Under the pieces are notes generated by a model, which saw only the letters and a list, made by a program, of their open reading frames with translations, searched no databases and was not told the origin of the DNA. DNA of 28,791 bases from the IMG/VR virus record IMGVR_UViG_3300042524_000214, positions 102,663-131,453 of that record; one strand, written 5' to 3'. Origin of the DNA: a virus. The position numbers and the translations under genes are program-made. Shown here one piece after another: positions 14,847 through 28,791 of the stretch. Position 1 is the stretch's first letter. Each line of letters opens with the position of its first letter.

Positions 14847-17066
14847 TTATTTTTTAAATCTACCTCCAAATTTTTTCTTTTCGGTCTTTTTTGTTTTAGC
14901 AGCCTCTTGTTCTTTTGAATAAAGTTCTTTTAAAAAGTTTGTTTCACCTTCATTAAAATTTGGTGTCTTATTTACTTCATAACCTTCTCCAGTAAACTGT
15001 ACATCTGGATTTAGTGCATTGTATCTATTAAACCCTTCTACTGTCTTCCAGTTATTCATCTGGTTTTCTTGAAGTCTATTATAAAAGTTATTTAAGTTTT
15101 GCTCATAAGCATTTTGTGCTGTATAAGTTCTTTTTTCGTAGTCTAAAGCATCTTGACCTGCTGCATTTTCTTCAGCATCGGATATTTTTGCATTGTATGT
15201 ATCAACTGCATTTCTACCTGCTGCATTAGACCTATTTACATCTGCAATTACTTTATTAGAATTCATATTGTAATTAGCTGTTACCCCTATAGAAGCTGCT
15301 GCTCTTTGTGCTGGGGTCATATCTTTTAGCTGGTCTTGTGTAGCATTTTCGGAACGATTCATCTCAGCTAATTGTTGTTCTGGAGATATATCATTGTACC
15401 CTATTCTACTGTATCTTCTTTGTAGTTTTAAACTAGGTTGTATAGAAGATGGCATTAATGGAGTTTGGTCAGGTAGTAACAACAAACCTCTTCTGTTTTT
15501 GTCTTTTACTATATCTTTTGTAGGTTCTTCTACAACATTGTTTTGTTTAAATTTAAAAGGGTTTTCCGCAAATCTAACAGTCCCTGTTGATGGTGTTTCC
15601 GGTGTTTCCCCTGGAGTAACCGGCTTATTCTCACCAGTAAGTTTTAAAAACTTATTTGTAGGGTTTTTTGCTGACTCATCTAAATCTTGTACTGTAACCC
15701 CATATTCATCTGCTATCATTTGCTTACCCCCTGGGGATTGCTTTCTATAAGCATCTAAATCTACATTACCTGATTTTTTAGCAGGTTTTGCTACTACAAA
15801 CCCAGGCTCTGAAGCTACTATGTTACCATAAGCATCTGTCTTTTGGTTTCTAAACGGTGCACCTTGGTACACTATCCCTTTTTCTTTTAAGGCAGGTATT
15901 ACTTCATTGTATATTAATTTAGTGTCCTCTGGGTTATTTGGATTAAAATCTCTACCTGTTTTTTGTTTGAATGTGGTATTATACAAATACCCATTTATTC
16001 TTGCTTCGTCTTGTCCTCCGTAAGAGCCATTAGGATTATCTTTGTGTTGTAACTGTATAGGCAGCACTTTTCCTGTACCTATTGTTTCTAACATACCTGG
16101 ATTAAATACTAACTCATTACTGTCAATTGCTTTGTTTAAATTGTCTAAACTCTTCTTATCTAATACAAATTTAGAATAGTGTTTTTTAATTGCTTCTTTT
16201 TCTTTATCCGTGTAAGTTCTAGCTTTACCTGTTACTTCCCCTAAAACACCTTTTTTAGCCTCTTTCTGGTAGTATTCTGCATCGGACATATTTTCGGGTC
16301 TCTCTGAACCTTTGTTAAGCCCTAACTGTTTTACTAAATCAGCAAATGGGTTTACAAATCCTGCATCTTGGTAATGTGGTAGGGTTTTTAAAAGTTCTTT
16401 AGCTCTTTCTGGGTCTATCTTATGTTTGGCGGCTAGTTCCAAGTAGTCTCCTCCCATTTGCATTTTATACCCAGATTGTTCTGTTTTAGCCTCCTCTTGT
16501 TTTTTAAATAGCATATCAAAAAATTTAGCTCTCTCTTTTTCAAGAGGTTCTTTTTCTTTACTTTTGCTGTTTACACTGTTGTTTAGGAATTGATTGTTTA
16601 AAGCAAAAGTTTCTTTATCTTTGCTCTTATCTTTCTGCTCATCCATAGATTTAATAAACTTTTCTAACTCTTCATTTACTTTAGTTAACCCCGAAGCATT
16701 AGTAAACCTATCTAAAGCTTTAGAGTAAGTGTCATTAGCTTTAAAAGGTAATTTTAATGATTTGTTTAATTCTTTAGCTAAGTCAACCCCAATTTTTAAA
16801 TGGTTACTTATAATTCTAGAGCCCTCTTCAAGTTTAACTGGCATACCTCCCTTTTCGTGGGATTTACCTTCAAACTTTCTTATGCCTTTAGAGTCAAGTA
16901 TGTATTCTCCACCTTCTACCTCTGCGTTAGGTTTTGCTATGGGTTTATCCATATCCAGTGCAAACTGGTACTCACCAGTCATAGCTTTATGCAAATCCTT
17001 TTTCTCGCCACCGTTTGCAAAGAAGATATTTTCAAAAACTTCTTTTGGTATTTCTATTTTATTCAT
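14847..17066 (-). CDS. Virion-associated protein, 739 aa, with EVEGGE/SHEKGG domain
   Basis: The ATG at 17066 overlaps the stop of the preceding gene (TATGAATAA), so translation is coupled. Residues 13-95 hold GGEKKD (19-24), EVEGGE (49-54), SHEKGG (69-74) and then a VKLEEGSRIIS strand. The EVEGGE...SHE.GG pattern is one I recall in large structural proteins of many Bacteroidetes phages. MQMGGDYLEL (near 200) and the C-terminal FGGRFKK belong to the Gly-Gly motif style shared with the 711-aa protein and the lysin. A Lys/Glu-rich linker (about 140-195) separates the N-terminal domain from the middle, and the C-terminal 150 residues are Asn/Gln-rich and probably helical (AQNAYEQNLNNFYNRLQENQ). 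The enzymatic role, if any, is unknown. It is most likely a structural or internal protein. Confidence 0.7.
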   Translation of the reverse strand: MNKIEIPKEVFENIFFANGGEKKDLHKAMTGEYQFALDMDKPIAKPNAEVEGGEYILDSKGIRKFEGKSHEKGGMPVKLEEGSRIISNHLKIGVDLAKELNKSLKLPFKANDTYSKALDRFTNASGLTKVNEELEKFIKSMDEQKDKSKDKETFALNNQFLNNSVNSKSKEKEPLEKERAKFFDMLFKKQEEAKTEQSGYKMQMGGDYLELAAKHKIDPERAKELLKTLPHYQDAGFVNPFADLVKQLGLNKGSERPENMSDAEYYQKEAKKGVLGEVTGKARTYTDKEKEAIKKHYSKFVLDKKSLDNLNKAIDSNELVFNPGMLETIGTGKVLPIQLQHKDNPNGSYGGQDEARINGYLYNTTFKQKTGRDFNPNNPEDTKLIYNEVIPALKEKGIVYQGAPFRNQKTDAYGNIVASEPGFVVAKPAKKSGNVDLDAYRKQSPGGKQMIADEYGVTVQDLDESAKNPTNKFLKLTGENKPVTPGETPETPSTGTVRFAENPFKFKQNNVVEEPTKDIVKDKNRRGLLLLPDQTPLMPSSIQPSLKLQRRYSRIGYNDISPEQQLAEMNRSENATQDQLKDMTPAQRAAASIGVTANYNMNSNKVIADVNRSNAAGRNAVDTYNAKISDAEENAAGQDALDYEKRTYTAQNAYEQNLNNFYNRLQENQMNNWKTVEGFNRYNALNPDVQFTGEGYEVNKTPNFNEGETNFLKELYSKEQEAAKTKKTEKKKFGGRFKK

Positions 17067-19194
17067 AGCTTACTTCGTATTTTCCGGTTGTACTATTAAA
17101 AGTATAATCTTTTATTGTTTTTCCTTTCAAAGAATTTAAGTATTCTCCTCCTTTTCTCATCTGTGGAGTACCTTGCTCTGGGGATTCCATTCCTGTTTCT
17201 CCCCCTTGTATTTCTTGTAGTATTTCTTGTATCATTTGCATAGCTTGCTCTTGAGGTATACCCATTTGAACTAATTGTTCTAATACTTGTTTAGGGTCTG
17301 CCCCTTGTTTAAGAGCTTGTTCAACTTGTGATTCAATTTGCTCCATACTTGGTGTTTCTCCTTCGGTTCCTTCATTTTCCCCCTCTGCTTTCTCATCCAT
17401 TGCTTCCCCACCTTCTTGGTAATATTTACCCCCTCTTTTCATTTGTGGGCTAGCTTGTGGTGCTTGTTGACCTCCTTGCATTTGTTGCATAGCTGCTTGC
17501 ACTATTTGTTGAGCTTGTTCTTGTGGAACACCTGCTTCAATGAGTTGTTGTAGTATTTGTTGAGGGTCGGCACCTTGCTGTAGCATTTGTGAAACTTGCT
17601 GCATGATAGCTTGCATTTGTTCGTTTTGTTGTGGTTCAGCTGCTTGTTCCTCACCACCTTCTTGATACATATAACCGCCTCTTTTCATTTGTGGGGTACC
17701 TTGTTCCATCTGCTCTTCTTGTGGGTTTGGCTGTCCACCTTCGGCACCTTCTTCCTGAGAACTTTGTCCTTGTTGTTGTATTTGCTGCATAACAGCTTGT
17801 ACAAGTTGAACTGCTTGTTCTTGTGGCATACCTGATTTTAACAACATCTGCATAACTTGTTGCGGTTGAGCTCCTTGTTGTAATGCTTGAGAGACTTGTT
17901 CTGCCATTTGTTGCTCTCCACCGTCTTGGTAGTACATCGTACCACCTCTTTTCATTTGTGGAGTGGCACCTTGAGATTGCTGCATCACTGTTTGTACCAT
18001 TTGAACTGCTTGTTCTTGTGGTATCCCCATTTGGACTAATTGTTGGATTACTTGTTGTGGGTCAGCTCCTTGTTGTAACATTTGTGCTACTTCTTGCATT
18101 ATTTGCTGTTCTTGACCTCCTCCTTGTTGTTCCATACCTTCTTCTTGTGAATTTGATGTTTGTCCTTCTAATCCTTCTTCCATTCCTGGTTGCATTCCTC
18201 CTTCTTGGTAATAGCCTCCAAATCTTGCCATTTGCTCTCTTCCTTGACCAGTCATACCTTCTCTTTGTTTTTCTGCGTATTGTTTTTTAACGTAATTTTC
18301 TCTTCTAGCTTGCCCCATACCTCCTAGTATATTTCTAGCTGTTCCTAAAGCAACTTTAGCTCCAGATGCAACTGCACCTAGGGTGTCTTTGTTTTCTAGA
18401 GATTGACCAAACATAACACTAGCAGATGGTATATCTACTCCTGAGTAAGGGTTGAAAAATTGAAATGGTTGTCCTTCTTTAATATCTGGTTTTTGTAATC
18501 CGGTTGTTTCTGTTTTTGCTTTTGCATCTTCTACTTCTGCACCAAACACATTGCTAGACATAGGTTTTTCTATACCTTGTGGTAAAGGATTTTTTGCAGC
18601 CCAATCTTTTCCTGCTGTTAGAGATTCTGGAGATAATGGACTTGGTTTATTTGGGTCTACTCCTAATCCATTTTCATTTGGATTTATTGCTGTTATTTTA
18701 TTTAAACTGGCTGAAAATTCTTCCGGAGAAGCTATGTTTGTGTTTTCGCCAAATTTAGGCTTAGGGAACGTACTACCTGGGAAATTCCCTGCAAACTGGT
18801 AGCTAGGTAGTTGATAACCACCCTCTCCATGAATATTATCATACATTTCGTATGCTACAGCAACTGCTTGTTTTTGGGGATAGCCCTCACGTACAAGTTT
18901 TGAAATTTTAGCACTTATCCAGTCATTCTTTTCACCACCGTGACCAAACATAGGGGTTTCCGCCACATAAGAAGCTCCACCAAATCTATACTCTTCTCCC
19001 GGTTGCATAACCACGCTATTACCAATTGGATTACCATTTTGGTCTAGAGGGGTTGCTTGCAATGGGTAAGGGGTATTAGCCATAGTTATATTCTCACTTG
19101 GTATAAAATTAACAGGGTTTTTCTCTGAGCTATACCCTGGAGTATAACCTGTTCTATTTACTAGGTTAGACTTTTTTTTGTACTTTCTTTCCAT
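17059..19194 (-). CDS. Gln-rich repeat virion protein, 711 aa
   Basis: The start at 19194 has an A-rich leader. N-terminal features: NITM...P (35-43), VMQPGEEYRFGG (62-73), GHGGEKNDW (84-92) and a helical motif LVREGYPQKQAV (100-111). Residues 130-320 are low complexity and Pro/Asn/Gly-rich. Residues 330-690 hold four copies of a Gln-rich module: a helix, QGA(D/Q)P(Q/K)QV, a second helix with G.PQEQA (near 392, 457, 556 and 645), and then PQM(K/R)(R/K)GG with, in three copies, YYQ.GG. The last 20 residues are a separate strand-like tail. The composition suggests a flexible, multivalent structural or assembly protein. It couples to the next gene through overlapping stop and start codons. No clear promoter was seen between it and the plus-strand VanZ-like gene, so transcription may read through from the lysin gene. 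Confidence 0.72.
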   Translation of the reverse strand: MERKYKKKSNLVNRTGYTPGYSSEKNPVNFIPSENITMANTPYPLQATPLDQNGNPIGNSVVMQPGEEYRFGGASYVAETPMFGHGGEKNDWISAKISKLVREGYPQKQAVAVAYEMYDNIHGEGGYQLPSYQFAGNFPGSTFPKPKFGENTNIASPEEFSASLNKITAINPNENGLGVDPNKPSPLSPESLTAGKDWAAKNPLPQGIEKPMSSNVFGAEVEDAKAKTETTGLQKPDIKEGQPFQFFNPYSGVDIPSASVMFGQSLENKDTLGAVASGAKVALGTARNILGGMGQARRENYVKKQYAEKQREGMTGQGREQMARFGGYYQEGGMQPGMEEGLEGQTSNSQEEGMEQQGGGQEQQIMQEVAQMLQQGADPQQVIQQLVQMGIPQEQAVQMVQTVMQQSQGATPQMKRGGTMYYQDGGEQQMAEQVSQALQQGAQPQQVMQMLLKSGMPQEQAVQLVQAVMQQIQQQGQSSQEEGAEGGQPNPQEEQMEQGTPQMKRGGYMYQEGGEEQAAEPQQNEQMQAIMQQVSQMLQQGADPQQILQQLIEAGVPQEQAQQIVQAAMQQMQGGQQAPQASPQMKRGGKYYQEGGEAMDEKAEGENEGTEGETPSMEQIESQVEQALKQGADPKQVLEQLVQMGIPQEQAMQMIQEILQEIQGGETGMESPEQGTPQMRKGGEYLNSLKGKTIKDYTFNSTTGKYEVSYE
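17145..18105 (-). repeat. Four tandem Gln-rich helical modules within the 711-aa protein
   Basis: Each module is about 65-100 codons: two Gln-rich helices joined by QGADPQQV and ending in G.PQEQAV, a variable linker, then PQMKRGG. The PQMKRGG-like segments lie near 17150, 17435, 17680 and 17947. The helix cores are well conserved while the linkers differ in length and composition, so these are old, diverged duplications and not a recent DNA-level tandem repeat. Confidence 0.85.
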
Positions 19195-19222
19195 TTTATT
19201 TTTTTATTTGAAATATTTTTAT

Positions 19223-19230
19223 TAATTTTG
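19223..19230 (+). promoter_or_regulatory. Candidate -7 box for the VanZ-like gene
   Basis: TAATTTTG followed by CA, 22 bases before the plus-strand ATG at 19253, matching the -7 element of the three minus-strand promoters (TA(A/C)TTTTGC). The nearest upstream TTTG (19207-19210) is only 12 bases away instead of 19-20, so the -33 element is weak or absent. Confidence 0.45.
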
Positions 19231-19252
19231 CACTTTAATTAAACGATTTATT

Positions 19253-19618
19253 ATGAAAACTTTATTACTAGGAATTTTTAGTTTTATTTTTTACAACGGG
19301 TTTTTTACATTCTCAAAAAGTAATACTATTATTTTATCTATATTTACAGATAAGCAATTACATTTTGCTGTATTCTTTTTATACCCTTTGGTTTTTTTAT
19401 ATTTTCTTCCTAAAAATAAGATTATTACTATAATAACTCTTTTATTTTTTGGTACTATGACTTTTGGTATAGAAGTATTACAAAGAAAATATTTCCATAG
19501 AACTTATTCTATGCTAGATTTTAAATACTCCTTTTGTGGGTTTTTGTCCTCTTGCCTTGTATTACTAATCCTAAATACTATATCTTATTTTGGCTCTTTA
19601 AAGAAGTTCTCCATTTAG
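19253..19618 (+). CDS. VanZ-like small membrane protein, 121 aa
   Basis: The only plus-strand gene. A hydrophobic N-terminus (1-20) is followed by TDKQLHF (32-38), a membrane segment (39-52), another (56-72), and GIEVLQRKYFHRTYSMLDF (72-90) leading into a last membrane segment (92-112). DK.LHF, then E..Q, R, S..D and G at VanZ-like spacing are the family's hallmark; the usual Asn four residues after the Asp is Ser here. VanZ-family proteins are membrane proteins linked to glycopeptide resistance in bacteria, and their biochemical role is unclear. In a phage next to a lysin it could alter the envelope or help lysis, which is inference. It overlaps the lysin gene's 3' end by 41 bases and is antisense to the flow of the surrounding genes. 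An A/T-rich start without Shine-Dalgarno and a candidate -7 box support the frame. Confidence 0.75.
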   Translation: MKTLLLGIFSFIFYNGFFTFSKSNTIILSIFTDKQLHFAVFFLYPLVFLYFLPKNKIITIITLLFFGTMTFGIEVLQRKYFHRTYSMLDFKYSFCGFLSSCLVLLILNTISYFGSLKKFSI

Positions 19619-22343
19619 CAACATTCTTTTGTAATAGTAAACTATCAGAAGTTGTTTTGTAAGATTTTTTATTATCCCCTACATCAAACATATTTGAGTA
19701 ATTCAAAACTTTATTAGTATAATCTACATCATAGTCTTTAGCCCAGTCTTCTATTTTCTTACCATTTACCACACGACCCATCGTACTATTATAAGTTGTT
19801 ATAGCTCTATACATAGCATCTTTTTTACTAAATCCTTTATCTAGAAATTTTTTATAGTCTTTAGATAATTTATACATAGTAGTCAATGATGCTTTATTTT
19901 CATCAGAAAAATTATCTTTTGTGATACCTAATTCTGTTACATCATCATTTCCAAAGTTAGATTCATATTTTAATTGTCCTGCTCCTTGGGATGCTTCGTC
20001 TTTTTTAAGCCCTACAGCATGTGCAGATTTAGCTACTGTTTGTTTTATACCGGTAGTGTATTTAGCACTTGTACCAAAACCTGTCTCTTGACCTAGTATG
20101 CCCAAGGATGCCTTAGCTAATGAGTTGTACTCATCGTCACCAAGGTTAAATACTTTTGAAAGTACTTTTTTATTCTTGTTATCATTCAAAGGTTTTATAA
20201 AAGAGTTCTCTAATTTACTTTTTGCAGAAGCTGATGTAAAAAAGTTATCATAATCCCCAGTGGATAAAGTGGCTGCTTTTTTAGGGTTTAGTTTTATAGC
20301 TAAGTCTTCTCTAACTATTTTCTTTTCCCCATTCTCTACAGAACCATAATTTGGTCTAAATATATGCTTTACTGTGTATGGGCTACTATGCCCTTGTATT
20401 TCACTTGCTTTAACTAAATCTCTATACTCTCTACCTTCAAAACCATCTTCTTTATTCCCTTTGTGCAGATTATGTAGTATGTAGTAACTTCCATCTGGGT
20501 TTACTTTATCTACTATACCTACGTGGGTTGTTCCGGTTCCTGCTGCATCGGCTTCTTTTTGGAAAGGGCTAATACCATGTGTGTAAACTGTGATTACATC
20601 TCCAGCTTGTACTTGTTTAGGTTTTACCTCTTGCCCACCTTTGCTTATTATATTTTTACCTATACTCCAAGCATCCCCTGTTATACCAGTCTTGGCATTC
20701 CATTCATCTCTCGATACATTAGGTTGCACGTTTCTAAATAGCTCATTTTGGCTATATTCTGAACACTGTGACTCTGTGCACTTGCCTAATAAACCTTTAC
20801 CCTCTTTTATGCTAGAGTATCCATTATTAGATAAGTTTTGGTTATACTGTTGTATTGCTTTTAATGTTACTTTACCTGCTTTACCATCTATACCTGAATT
20901 CTCAAACTTACCTTCTGGATTTAGATTATATCCTTTTTCTACTAAGAAAGACTGTAGTTTTTTTACTTGGTCTTGGCTTTTAAAATCAGATAGTTTTAAA
21001 TCTATATCTTTATTTTCTATAGAATCCTCTAAAGTAGCTTTGCTTGAAAGTTCCTTATTTATTTCAGATAAATTCAATCTATCTTTTTTATCTTCTATTT
21101 CTTTTAATATCTCTTTTTTAGTACCGTATTTTAATTCCTGTTTTTTTTCTAGTACTTGCTCTTGTATATTTCCAGTACCTTCCCTAACTCCGGTAAATTG
21201 TCTTCTGGGTAAATCCTTGAATACTACCTTTTCGCCTGGTTTAGAGCCATATTTAGATATTAACTCGTCTACTTTGCTAGTTGGTTCTGCTTTTTTTGTA
21301 GTTGGTTTTGCAGTCGGTTTCTGAGTTGTTCTTTGAGGTGTTCCAAAACCCTGAGATAACTGTTCTTGAAAAGTTTTAGGAGCCGCCCCGAAAGGGTTTT
21401 CTTCATCCTCTGCATAAGTTTCTGCAAAATCTCCACCTTCAGCAAATCTTTTTAGTTCTTTGTTGAACACCTCGTAATCAATACCCCCTTGTGTACCCCC
21501 TTGTGTACCACCATTTTCAAAATAGCTTGGTGCTTGTTGAGCTTGATATTCTGGAAGTTCTGGCATATATAATTCATAGCCTGATTGATTAGCTTGAGGA
21601 GCTTGTTGCTCTTCTTGTCTTGCTTGTAGTTCTTGGATAAAGTTTTGCTCTTGTTGAGATTTTTTTAGTTCTTCTTTTGCGGAGTCTCCTTCAATATCTT
21701 CTTGGCTTTTATCCGTTTCATAATAATCTTGTGCTGTTACGTAATCCCCAGAATTCTCTGTTAAGTTAAGAGTTGAATCTAAATAGTAGTCTTTTGGTTC
21801 AGACTTATCTGCATAATAGCTATCTCTAGACTCTGTGCTAGAAGGGTAATTATTGTTTTCCGGATTAGACTTATTTGAGCTAATTCCTATTTTTCCTAAA
21901 ATACTTTTTATTTTTACATCGTACTTATCATCTGTGGCATAACCTTCTCCGCTACCGGTTCTTGGGTTATACTTCCAAATTTTTCCTAATGCTTCGTCTA
22001 CGGTGCTTGCATTTTTGTATTTGCTACCCCATTTTTTTATTCTATCATCTACTGCTTCTTCTAGGGTATCATAATCTCTAAATTTGGCATTAGTTCTGTA
22101 AGACCTATTATTTGATACCTCTAATGTAGACTTATTGCTACCTTTTTGGGAGGCTGATGCTTTTTGCCCAAAATAGTTGTACTTACCGGCAGGGCTCTTA
22201 AACCAACCAGTTTCTAAAATTGCTTGGGCTAAGGTTAGCTCTGGGTGTCTATCTCCTCTATTTTTTGCTGTATCGTAGAGTTGTGTAGCTTTGCTCCACT
22301 GCTCATTACTTACATCTTTTGGTTTTATTAAAACATCTGCCAT
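19578..22343 (-). CDS. Multi-domain virion-type peptidoglycan hydrolase, 921 aa
   Basis: Domains in order. (1) Residues 15-155, glucosaminidase of the FlgJ/endo-beta-N-acetylglucosaminidase type: AILETGW with catalytic Glu44, YNYFGQKA, FRDYDTLEEA and GYATDDKYDVKI. (2) A Gln/Glu-rich linker (200-275) and a Gly-Gly stretch (RFAEGGDF, near 305). (3) Near 455-510, a peptidoglycan-binding-like segment (VKKLQSFLVEKGYN...GIDGKAGKVTLKAIQQYN). (4) Residues 515-660, CHAP/NlpC-like papain-fold hydrolase: ESQCSEYSQNE (probable catalytic Cys), AGDVITVYTHG, THVGIVD (near 606) and a following HN. (5) Residues 740-895, lytic-transglycosylase-like: GILGQETGFG (Glu near 750), SQGAGQLKYES and TTYNSTMGR (near 852). 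It would cut both glycan and peptide bonds. The lack of a signal peptide, large size and position after the tail genes favour a virion-associated entry lysin over a cytoplasmic endolysin. It ends in TAG. Confidence 0.85.
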   Translation of the reverse strand: MADVLIKPKDVSNEQWSKATQLYDTAKNRGDRHPELTLAQAILETGWFKSPAGKYNYFGQKASASQKGSNKSTLEVSNNRSYRTNAKFRDYDTLEEAVDDRIKKWGSKYKNASTVDEALGKIWKYNPRTGSGEGYATDDKYDVKIKSILGKIGISSNKSNPENNNYPSSTESRDSYYADKSEPKDYYLDSTLNLTENSGDYVTAQDYYETDKSQEDIEGDSAKEELKKSQQEQNFIQELQARQEEQQAPQANQSGYELYMPELPEYQAQQAPSYFENGGTQGGTQGGIDYEVFNKELKRFAEGGDFAETYAEDEENPFGAAPKTFQEQLSQGFGTPQRTTQKPTAKPTTKKAEPTSKVDELISKYGSKPGEKVVFKDLPRRQFTGVREGTGNIQEQVLEKKQELKYGTKKEILKEIEDKKDRLNLSEINKELSSKATLEDSIENKDIDLKLSDFKSQDQVKKLQSFLVEKGYNLNPEGKFENSGIDGKAGKVTLKAIQQYNQNLSNNGYSSIKEGKGLLGKCTESQCSEYSQNELFRNVQPNVSRDEWNAKTGITGDAWSIGKNIISKGGQEVKPKQVQAGDVITVYTHGISPFQKEADAAGTGTTHVGIVDKVNPDGSYYILHNLHKGNKEDGFEGREYRDLVKASEIQGHSSPYTVKHIFRPNYGSVENGEKKIVREDLAIKLNPKKAATLSTGDYDNFFTSASAKSKLENSFIKPLNDNKNKKVLSKVFNLGDDEYNSLAKASLGILGQETGFGTSAKYTTGIKQTVAKSAHAVGLKKDEASQGAGQLKYESNFGNDDVTELGITKDNFSDENKASLTTMYKLSKDYKKFLDKGFSKKDAMYRAITTYNSTMGRVVNGKKIEDWAKDYDVDYTNKVLNYSNMFDVGDNKKSYKTTSDSLLLQKNVAKWRTSLKSQNKI

Positions 22344-22357
22344 ATTAAAAAAATTAA

Positions 22358-22381
22358 GCCCCTAAAAGTTAAATTAGGGGC
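22358..22381 (-). terminator. GC-rich hairpin with T-tract between the tail block and the lysin gene
   Basis: A perfect inverted repeat: GCCCCTAA, an 8-base loop, TTAGGGGC. On the minus strand it is followed by TTAATTTTTTT, as in an intrinsic terminator, and then the lysin ATG 14 bases after the stem. Its first base is the last G of the -7 box of the lysin promoter, so promoter and hairpin overlap by one base. It could terminate tail-block transcripts or act as a 5' leader structure. Confidence 0.6.
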
Positions 22382-22411
22382 AAAATTACTAAAAATTATT
22401 GTAACTTCAAA
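22381..22411 (-). promoter_or_regulatory. Bacteroidetes-type promoter of the lysin gene
   Basis: On the minus strand TTTG (22408-22411), 19 bases, then TAATTTTG (22381-22388), within the 80-base gap between the 311-aa gene and the lysin gene. Spacing and boxes match the promoters at 6146-6177 and 14806-14837, but the sequence after the -7 box is a hairpin stem instead of CATAAA. Confidence 0.75.
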
Positions 22412-25590: not shown

Positions 25591-25947
25591 TTATTTTATT
25601 AATACAGCTTCTTTTCCGAAACCATCTACCCTCAGCATAAATTTAAAATCTACTTTTACCGGGAATTTTATTTTATTGATTTCTAAAACTTGTTTTTGTG
25701 TTATATTTTTTTGTATGATAATATCATAATCACTTGAATCTATCCAATACCCTTTTACTCTTGACCCAAATAAATACATCTGACACTCTCCTATAGTAGT
25801 TTCTAGTAAGTCCTTTATAATGTGTAATACTTTTTTACAATCCTCTGGTAATTCTTTCCACTCTGTTATTAAAGGATGAACTGCCAGTCTTTTTACTGGC
25901 AGCTTAAATCCTAATGGGTTCCCTATGTATGGGTATTGTTTTCTCAT
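25591..25947 (-). CDS. Small nucleotidyltransferase-fold protein (MNT-like), 118 aa
   Basis: The start was set at MRKQYPY (25947), five bases after the upstream stop; in-frame ATGs at 25965 and 25983 would overlap that gene. Residues 58-77 read YLFGSRVKGYWIDSSDYDII: a GS(x10)DxD signature of DNA-polymerase-beta-like nucleotidyltransferases, with metal ligands Asp73 and Asp75. VKVDFKF near the C-terminus supplies the likely third carboxylate (Asp100). This matches minimal MNT domains, which transfer nucleotides to proteins, RNA or small molecules and often pair with a HEPN partner. No HEPN protein is visible. Its place between two tail genes, with gaps of 5 and 10 bases, suggests co-expression with virion proteins. 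A modifier of a virion component or an injected protein are both possible. All key acidic residues are present, so it is probably active. Confidence 0.75.
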   Translation of the reverse strand: MRKQYPYIGNPLGFKLPVKRLAVHPLITEWKELPEDCKKVLHIIKDLLETTIGECQMYLFGSRVKGYWIDSSDYDIIIQKNITQKQVLEINKIKFPVKVDFKFMLRVDGFGKEAVLIK

Positions 25948-25952
25948 ATTAT

Positions 25953-28791
25953 TTAATTCCACCATGTCCCTTTTGGTATACAACTATAAGCACCAAATCC
26001 AGTTGTTGGTTGTACATTTGGTAAAAAAGGACTTTCAATACTCATACCTAAATTTTTTGTCCACCAAAATATTACTGGAAAAGCTTCCCCAGATATTTGT
26101 CTGCTTATACTTATAGTAAAGGTAGAGCCTGAATATGGGCAATCTATCGTAGATAAATCGTCATGGAACACAAAACCACTTCCTGCTACACCTATTATGC
26201 TGTTTAACCAGTTGTTTATGTTTTGTACGTATGTTGTAACTCCATTAAGACCTACCCCAACCACTAAACCTGATGGTGCGTTTATTGTTAAAGTTTGCCC
26301 GGAAGCATACTCAGTGCCATCTAATTTTAGCTTATTTAGTGTAAAAGTGTATGTCGCACTAGCCCAATTTTTTTCAATACTTGAGTACTCTTGGTAACAT
26401 CTACTTGGAGATATTGTTGGACATATCGCTAAAACTCTATCTAATCTTTCACATAACCCTGTTTTTGAATTGTATGTAAAATCAGGAGGGCAATTAGTGG
26501 TTGTCTCTTCATTACAACATTTTGTCTCATTGTAAAAGTAACCTTGACCTGGGATATAATCTATACAAGGGTCTGGTATGTAATCTTTCTTAGTTATAAA
26601 AACTCTTCTATATCTACTGTCCCAACCCATTGTAATACCAACACCGTTGTACGGGTTGTCTACATCCACATTAGGTAAGTACTTTAGTATTTTGAATGGG
26701 AGCTGTTCTTTAAACCAGTTCCTCATTCCACTAGCTTTACTGCCGGCAGCTGTAGATATTTCTACAATACCTGAACTGTTAGGTGCCACCATTAAGACTT
26801 GACCTCTTTTTGCATCTGCCCAAAAATGACCAGCTTCACAAGATACTTGAGCAAAGTTTTGAGTTCCACCATATCCTAACTTAGCATTCACAAATGATGT
26901 AGATGCTCTTTGGAAGAACATATTACCTCCTAGGGTAGTTGCTGTTATAGCAGCCCCCGTGTCTATTTTAGTATCTACCTTATTGTACAGTACAGAAGTA
27001 TCCGAAAATCTAGCAAGTATTGCTCCACTTTCAACATCAATTACATCTTTTAATTTACCGTAGTTTGAAGGAAATTCAAATGTATCTAATGGTCTATAAA
27101 TCAACCATGGGTCATAAGAAGAGGTTTCAGAATTATCTGGTAAACTTGCTATGATACCATTTGGCATATTTTGTATAACATCATACAATCTCTTTTTGTA
27201 GATTTCTGGTATCGTTCTAGTTCTAATTCTAGAAACTTGATTAGAATAAGCACTGTTATATCTAAAGATGTTTGGTTCTCTTATAGGTACGTTTGTCTCT
27301 TGTGTCCACTCCCCTAAATCACCTACTTGGGGATAAAACCCTTCTCTTTTTTCTTTACCTGCGTATCTGTATGCAGTGTTTATCCTTGTTTCTGTTAAGA
27401 AATTTGGAACCCCGTAATGGTATAAATAAAATTTAGACGGTGGGGTATAATAATTACCGCTTGATGAAGGGGTATCAAAATTAAAATCACTAGATATATC
27501 GGGTAATAATCTATTACCTTGTCCAAAATCTTTATTTTCTTCGTAACTAACATAAAAATGAGGTCTTCTACCTATATTATTGTAAAAATAATAATTGTAA
27601 GGTGTAAGGTCTGCTTGTTTCATAGCTGTTACTAAGAACTGAGACATCTTTCTTTTTAAGCTATGTCTAGTAATAAAAGTGTCTCCTCCAAAAATTGATA
27701 TACAACTTGTTTGTGGATTTCTTAAATTCCCTCTATAACCTGTGCTTAGCCACTTAACTGAGCTTATTGTACCATACTGTGTGGGTAAATAATTCTTTAG
27801 TGCTGCATACGGTGATGCGATATTTTTTATTATCTCTTGGCTTCTTCCGGTTGTAATTAAGTTATTTTCCCCCAGATAAGTCATACTTGAATCATTAGAC
27901 GATTTATCATAGTTTGTATAATCAACAGGGTACTCTACAGGAAATTTACCAAAAGATAAAAATACAGATTTCTCTCTATCAATGTTATTTACACTTAGTC
28001 TTTCTCCGGTAGTTTCATTTGTAACAATATATCTACCATCTCCTAGGTATTTACCTATATTCGCTGCTCTAAGTTTATTACCTTCATCCCCCCAAATTCC
28101 TTGTGGGTTTGGAGAAGAGTGGCTTATATAATTGTAAAACCCTTCTGAAAAATAGTAGTACGCAAAATTATGTGGTGTTCCTAAATCTCTAAATATTTTT
28201 AACCACTCATATCTGTATCTACCATACTGAAAGTATGCTCCACTAATACCACCTATTGCTGCAATAGCTATGGAAGCTACTAGCCCCCCAGGAAAAACTG
28301 TACTAGAAAAACCTACTACTATATTGGTATTTGATAAGGCTTGTAATGCTTCAATCAAGACATTAAAAATGGTCTCTGCTATTGCTAAATCATTTGCTAA
28401 TGTATATGCTCTCTCTGTTAAAATTACCCATTTTGGGTGTTGTTTTACTTGGTCAAAATTACCTCTTGAATTGCCATATTGGTATCCTTGAAAACTCACC
28501 TCAGAAGGAAGTCCAACTTTTGTATAGTCCGTTTCTGGAGAATGAAAAGTATAATGCCTATTAGATTCTCCAAATATGGCACCTTCTCCTAAATTCTCTC
28601 TATTTGTCTCAGTTGCATAAGGCTCATTGAACTTATCGGTTGAAAATGTATTGTAAGGATAATTGGAATACAATATGTCTTTGTCAACAGTTTCTGTTTC
28701 TCTATACTTACGCATATCATATAACAGTCCTGAGGCTACTACACTTCTATCTAAACTAATATCTCCTCTAAATAGTTCGTAACCAACTATT
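25953..28791 (-). CDS. Large tail/muzzle-like virion protein, N-terminus cut by window edge
   Basis: The frame is open to the right edge with no stop: 25 codons precede the first in-window ATG (28715), so the true start probably lies outside. 945 residues are visible. Counting from 28715: a segment with SPETDYTKVGLPSEV (near 60-75); a Gly/Ala-rich hydrophobic stretch (near 140-165); a long aromatic beta-rich region; TTLGGNMFFQRAST; GHFWADAKRGQVL (near 630); and DNPYNGVGITMGWDSRYRRV followed by TKKDYIP. A Cys-rich module (about 712-772) with CPPDFTYNSKTGLC is followed by a C-terminal beta module (LDGTEYASGQTLTIN). From memory the central motifs resemble distal tail (muzzle) proteins of crAss-like phages; that identity is tentative. 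The first gene of the tail block in this window, it is followed after five bases by the nucleotidyltransferase gene. Confidence 0.7.
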   Translation of the reverse strand, partial: IVGYELFRGDISLDRSVVASGLLYDMRKYRETETVDKDILYSNYPYNTFSTDKFNEPYATETNRENLGEGAIFGESNRHYTFHSPETDYTKVGLPSEVSFQGYQYGNSRGNFDQVKQHPKWVILTERAYTLANDLAIAETIFNVLIEALQALSNTNIVVGFSSTVFPGGLVASIAIAAIGGISGAYFQYGRYRYEWLKIFRDLGTPHNFAYYYFSEGFYNYISHSSPNPQGIWGDEGNKLRAANIGKYLGDGRYIVTNETTGERLSVNNIDREKSVFLSFGKFPVEYPVDYTNYDKSSNDSSMTYLGENNLITTGRSQEIIKNIASPYAALKNYLPTQYGTISSVKWLSTGYRGNLRNPQTSCISIFGGDTFITRHSLKRKMSQFLVTAMKQADLTPYNYYFYNNIGRRPHFYVSYEENKDFGQGNRLLPDISSDFNFDTPSSSGNYYTPPSKFYLYHYGVPNFLTETRINTAYRYAGKEKREGFYPQVGDLGEWTQETNVPIREPNIFRYNSAYSNQVSRIRTRTIPEIYKKRLYDVIQNMPNGIIASLPDNSETSSYDPWLIYRPLDTFEFPSNYGKLKDVIDVESGAILARFSDTSVLYNKVDTKIDTGAAITATTLGGNMFFQRASTSFVNAKLGYGGTQNFAQVSCEAGHFWADAKRGQVLMVAPNSSGIVEISTAAGSKASGMRNWFKEQLPFKILKYLPNVDVDNPYNGVGITMGWDSRYRRVFITKKDYIPDPCIDYIPGQGYFYNETKCCNEETTTNCPPDFTYNSKTGLCERLDRVLAICPTISPSRCYQEYSSIEKNWASATYTFTLNKLKLDGTEYASGQTLTINAPSGLVVGVGLNGVTTYVQNINNWLNSIIGVAGSGFVFHDDLSTIDCPYSGSTFTISISRQISGEAFPVIFWWTKNLGMSIESPFLPNVQPTTGFGAYSCIPKGTWWN

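Follow-up and report, generated by a model that had tools for sequence, protein, structure and literature searches.

The stretch of viral DNA analyzed here (the window) is 28,791 nt long and corresponds to bases 102663-131453, the terminal part of a 131,453-bp virus record. Its G+C content is 34.2%, and the large genes on its minus strand have matches among the virion proteins of csAssE-Sib and of Cellulophaga phages phi4:1 and phi17:2. The record as a whole is organized as a plus-strand block at ~33-96 kb with minus-strand late blocks to each side. Judged by its sequence, the source contig is a crAss-like phage that has Cellulophaga phage phi4:1 as a relative. A short open reading frame (ORF) of opposite orientation lies between two neighboring late genes of the window, and the features of this locus are as follows.

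17059 to 19194, minus strand: gene for a 711-aa virion structural protein (phrog_36695).
19195 to 19577, no strand: 383-bp stretch with a G+C content of 21.1%, missing from relatives as seen at the junctions of L002, L011, L010, and L009.
19223 to 19230, plus strand: -7-like box TAATTTTG of the VanZ-like gene, an octamer as in several late-gene promoters, with no TTG at 20 bp.
19253 to 19618, plus strand: ATG-to-TAG ORF of 121 aa for a putative VanZ-like (lipocone-type) small integral membrane protein, with remote VanZ homology.
19361 to 19363, plus strand: codon for H37 (within FTDKQLHF), a candidate for the active-site histidine of helix 2, aligned by hhalign onto RKxAH of VanZ.
19472 to 19474, plus strand: codon of E74 in GIEVLQ (ExxQ), candidate helix-3 glutamate from the alignment.
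19517 to 19519, plus strand: codon for D89 (within RTYSMLD), a candidate for the aspartate of helix 4 from the alignment.
19578 to 19618, no single strand: tail-to-tail overlap of 41 bases with the hydrolase gene, encoding residues 109 to 121 of the VanZ-like protein.
19578 to 22343, minus strand: gene for a 921-aa peptidoglycan hydrolase ("lysin") with a glucosaminidase domain and CHAP-like and PG-binding-like parts.
22381 to 22410 (record 125043-125072), minus strand: candidate promoter of the hydrolase gene, TTG - 19 bp - TAATTTTG, from the promoter survey.

The 921-aa hydrolase matched the glucosaminidase family PF01832 in Pfam (E value of 6e-16) and a PHROG endolysin (3.4e-21), and its CHAP and PG_binding_1 matches were under the Pfam cutoff. 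The glucosaminidase part is also present in cyanophages. Upstream of the hydrolase gene, between its promoter and start codon, positions 22358-22381 contain a GC-rich hairpin (GCCCCTAA...TTAGGGGC), with T-rich sequence after it. Elsewhere in the window, a small gene at 25591-25983, located between two same-strand virion genes, showed weak similarity to nucleotidyltransferases (PF18765, 3.2e-5; PF22600, 2e-5).

An earlier note on this DNA had described a lone plus-strand gene at 19223-19618. Indeed, the 121-aa ORF is the sole long plus-strand ORF of the window that is not inside a minus-strand gene, and the end of the range was correct, but position 19223 marks where the -7-like box begins, and the gene itself starts at 19253. 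The 41-base tail-to-tail overlap was confirmed, with the hydrolase gene occupying 19578-22343 on the minus strand and the ORF ending at 19618 on the plus strand. The claim that the gene is real also held, since its ATG-to-stop frame is longer than any ORF obtained when the region was resampled 3000 times with a first-order Markov model (longest ORF with a mean of 26 aa and a maximum of 91 aa; 0/3000 reaching 121 aa). Codon usage was neutral on this point: the codon model preferred neither the 121-aa frame nor its antisense, and the phage's other small hydrophobic genes likewise scored near zero. This neutrality and the lack of an above-threshold Pfam or PHROGs family would be compatible with a chance ORF within inserted noncoding DNA. 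However, that reading is extremely improbable in view of the resampling result, the VanZ motif register, and the existence of two relatives of the protein (L005 and L006, described below). The 121-aa protein has a GRAVY value of 0.88 and is predicted to reside in the membrane. Its gene has a G+C content of 23.8% versus 34.2% for the window, a deviation for which the hydrophobicity of the protein may account in part.

In four related phages (L002, L011, L010, and L009), the 711-aa-type gene lies 6, 2, 3, and 29 nt, respectively, from the hydrolase gene or the gene in the equivalent position, with no gene between them. The L011 junction, AAGATATAGTGATG, matches the hydrolase end of the window, AAGATATAG. 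The 121-aa protein was undetected in eight related records, some of them fragments, from collections that may lack the closest neighbors of the window. A match to the VanZ family PF04892 in the relative L019 was discarded, as it corresponded to an antisense reading of a structural gene. Repeats flanking the inserted stretch were limited to a single direct repeat of 15 nt and two inverted pairs, both weak, with no sign of a mobile element. A single-gene insertion in the lineage of the window is the simplest reading of these sequences, and we infer acquisition rather than loss in every relative. Because of its low G+C content relative to the window, the gene looks like a lone accessory (moron-type) insertion, and its last 13 residues, antisense to the hydrolase end, fit a gene that ran into its neighbor. 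The absence from relatives and the deviating G+C content would also be consistent with an inert passenger, that is, a VanZ-like gene gained horizontally from a host and either unexpressed or without a role in infection. An incomplete promoter points the same way, as does the position of the final 13 residues, which lie past the conserved motifs and overlap the hydrolase gene, as though the gene had lost its original end. Yet the ATG-to-stop frame and the motif residues are intact within a densely packed genome, and we consider an inert passenger unlikely.

The VanZ-like label proposed for the protein was retained in the sense of a remote homology, supported by the L005/L006 bridge and by hhalign but not by a direct Pfam VanZ match. 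Searches of Pfam, PHROGs, and NCBIfam with the 121-aa protein returned nothing informative; PF04892 was not matched by hmmscan at an E value of ≤1 or by the genome scan at an E value of ≤10, and its curated cutoff of 30.1 bits was not reached. No homologue was found among annotated phages, plasmids, or IMG/VR. A pattern search of genome contigs yielded the two clostridial relatives L005 and L006, which gave tblastn E values of ~1e-5 with the 121-aa protein (relative to the candidate stretches) and which themselves match PF04892 at 9e-6 and 4.5e-5, slightly below its cutoff. Both share with the phage protein an identical FTDKQLHF block, a TF[AG]IE[IV]xQ motif, and a later D and G, at 32-35% identity. 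Unlike the phage protein, they are chromosomal, have a longer helix-2 region, and belong to Gram-positive hosts. A wider survey, covering 299 genomes from the phylum to which L005 belongs, recovered a single match, which was weak and contained a stop.

Single-sequence hhalign of the 121-aa protein against a VanZ alignment built from PF04892 loci (among them, as L026, the L005 protein) gave a score of 22.5, compared with ≤15.7 for 100 composition-preserving shuffles and 9.9-13.7 for the other small membrane proteins of the phage that were tested. With L005 and L006 included, the E value was 2.4e-11, a signal coming mostly from those two bacterial relatives. A VanZ found on the IMG/VR contig L051 was set aside, as its neighbors are bacterial-looking genes, and our search of the literature on VanZ in phage genomes returned nothing specific. 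In Eubacterium sp. An11 (L005:3583-4683), the VanZ-like relative is directly downstream of a gene resembling a glucosaminidase; that both this gene and the phage gene have a glucosaminidase-type neighbor is probably a coincidence.

The hhalign register places DKxxH of the phage protein on RKxAH of VanZ, ExxQ on ExxQ, D89 on D, and G96 on G. VanZ (VanZ-1/VanZ-2) belongs to the lipocone superfamily, whose ancestral active site is composed of a His in helix 2, a Glu in helix 3, and an Asp in helix 4, with a Gly near the end of helix 4, and whose predicted substrates are lipid head groups (PMC12419801). AlphaFold models of the 121-aa protein were all-helical (residues 2-23, 33-50, 56-80, and 87-120), with a confidence (pLDDT of 64 and 60) too low for the four-helix cone fold of lipocones to be read from them, and a Foldseek search gave no match.

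The same phage encodes a second protein that is of interest with respect to the lipocone type, as given here.

L017:3172-3432 (G000 record 79172-79435), plus strand: 87-aa membrane protein with an HDKLLHF...KE..D...D pattern.

This protein is possibly a second lipocone, of a YfiM-like kind. Hypothetical proteins of Prochlorococcus phages P-TIM68 and P-RSP2 share ~50% identity with it, and two IMG/VR contigs share 61%; it was undetected in the crAss-like relatives searched. Like the 121-aa protein, the 87-aa protein and its cyanophage homologues appear to be of the wider lipocone type, with their HDKLLHF ... KE ... D pattern. In contrast to the 121-aa gene, its gene is in the early block, and the two proteins have no significant similarity to each other.

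Concerning expression of the inserted gene, a recurrent promoter of the phage has the form TTG - 20 bp - TANNTTTG, with many copies in the early block and similar late ones that often carry TAATTTTG. This motif could provide a usable promoter map for a crAss-like phage. The -7-like box attributed to the VanZ-like gene is present as TAATTTTG; however, TTT occupies the 20-bp spacing and the only TTG is 12 bp from the box. By chance, a bare TANNTTTG turns up in 8% of random 60-mers from the plus strand. No TANNTTTG box was seen upstream of the 711-aa gene, so this gene is probably expressed via read-through from the hydrolase gene, across the inserted gene.

The earlier note had further proposed that plus-strand transcription could regulate the lysin and structural genes. 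An antisense regulator of this kind would repress the 3' end of the lysin transcript and the read-through into the 711-aa gene. The 41-base overlap, the likely dependence of the 711-aa gene on read-through across the antisense region, and the absence of a terminator-like site on the plus strand close after the VanZ-like gene would all suit such a regulator. However, the whole element is missing from the four relatives of the same gene order and was undetected in their records, showing that this order works without the VanZ-like gene; its promoter is weak and incomplete, with a box of the kind found by chance at the above frequency; and Rfam gave no match at the locus. A coding sequence with conserved motifs is a better account of the locus, and antisense regulation is in our view very unlikely. 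Judged by the note's own refuting condition, a frame not conserved in related phages, the regulatory idea fails, but a real, lineage-specific gene does not. Transcription of both strands would make the antisense overlap a physical reality; regulation through it is unsupported.

A role as a lysis helper had also been put forward. In this reading, the 121-aa protein would aid the neighboring lysin in a holin-like or holin-modulating manner, through a weaker inner membrane or a weaker supply of peptidoglycan precursors. The protein is small and hydrophobic, its gene abuts a peptidoglycan hydrolase gene, and its -7 octamer is common to late promoters. However, this claim was weakened by a separate gene pair elsewhere in the record.

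L013:16384-17245, minus strand: M15 endolysin and PF05105 holin side by side, from Pfam.

The holin (PF05105, E value of 8.7e-12) adjoins the M15 endopeptidase (PF13539, E value of 8.8e-15), and the pair is likely the true lysis cassette of the phage. The 921-aa hydrolase is more likely virion associated, given its place among virion genes, and hydrolases of this type are kept in relatives without the VanZ-like gene. The 121-aa protein had no holin match in Pfam or PHROGs, and to our knowledge VanZ proteins are not known as holins. We therefore regard a lysis helper as quite unlikely.

Together, these observations are best accounted for by an accessory envelope-acting membrane protein of the VanZ/lipocone type, derived from a lone moron-type insertion, an explanation that we favor with moderate confidence, a little above even. 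A single accessory gene would have entered the genome of a crAss-like phage between two neighboring late genes, in the orientation opposite to their transcription. Its product would be a small multihelix inner-membrane protein of the VanZ/lipocone kind with an intact H-E-D triad (H37, E74, and D89), which during infection would probably act on lipids of the host envelope (undecaprenyl-linked precursors or phospholipids) at their phosphate-linked head groups. Rather than controlling lysin expression, it would most likely serve to alter the envelope or surface, for example, to counter superinfection. VanZ has been described as altering envelope ligand binding (PMC7146870), and phage-encoded Min-Wnt domains have been mentioned, with a suggested role in superinfection (PMC12419801). 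A more specific proposal, that the phage recruited a VanZ/lipocone enzyme that during infection remodels lipid-linked precursors of the cell wall or surface polysaccharides of its Bacteroidota host, for example, to block superinfection, is tentative and rather unlikely as it stands. The ORF, the overlap, the insertion relative to the four related phages, and the motif register were observed directly; enzymatic activity, substrate, and benefit to the phage are presumed. If the proposal is correct, the phage would carry a membrane lipocone with a definable role. A membrane VanZ-like protein carried as an insertion by a crAss-like phage would offer a simple test system for VanZ-type action on lipid-linked envelope precursors; in other respects, the finding is an ordinary one, an accessory gene in a phage.

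Phage morons are accessory genes with their own signals between conserved late genes. The 121-aa gene shares with them its status as a single gene, its deviating G+C content, its opposite strand, and its location at a junction that is empty in relatives (2-29 nt in the four phages); as for signals of its own, its promoter appears incomplete, with a -7 box but no TTG at 20 bp, and no terminator-like site on the plus strand was seen nearby. In comparison with VanZ-2, the phage protein has D in place of the R of RKxxH (DKQLH), S86 in place of the extra aspartate 3 residues before D89, and S93, not D, after D89, so that the RKxxH and DxxxD motifs of VanZ-2 are absent. It also differs from the VanZ family (PF04892) in falling under Pfam detection and in being carried by a phage without a resistance cluster. 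It nevertheless has the residue set of the VanZ-Skillet clade of lipocones, H37, E74, D89, and G96, in register. Like the VanZ family, it is small and hydrophobic, and it presents the H-E-D triad and the order and register of DKxxH, ExxQ, D, and G over helices 2-4.
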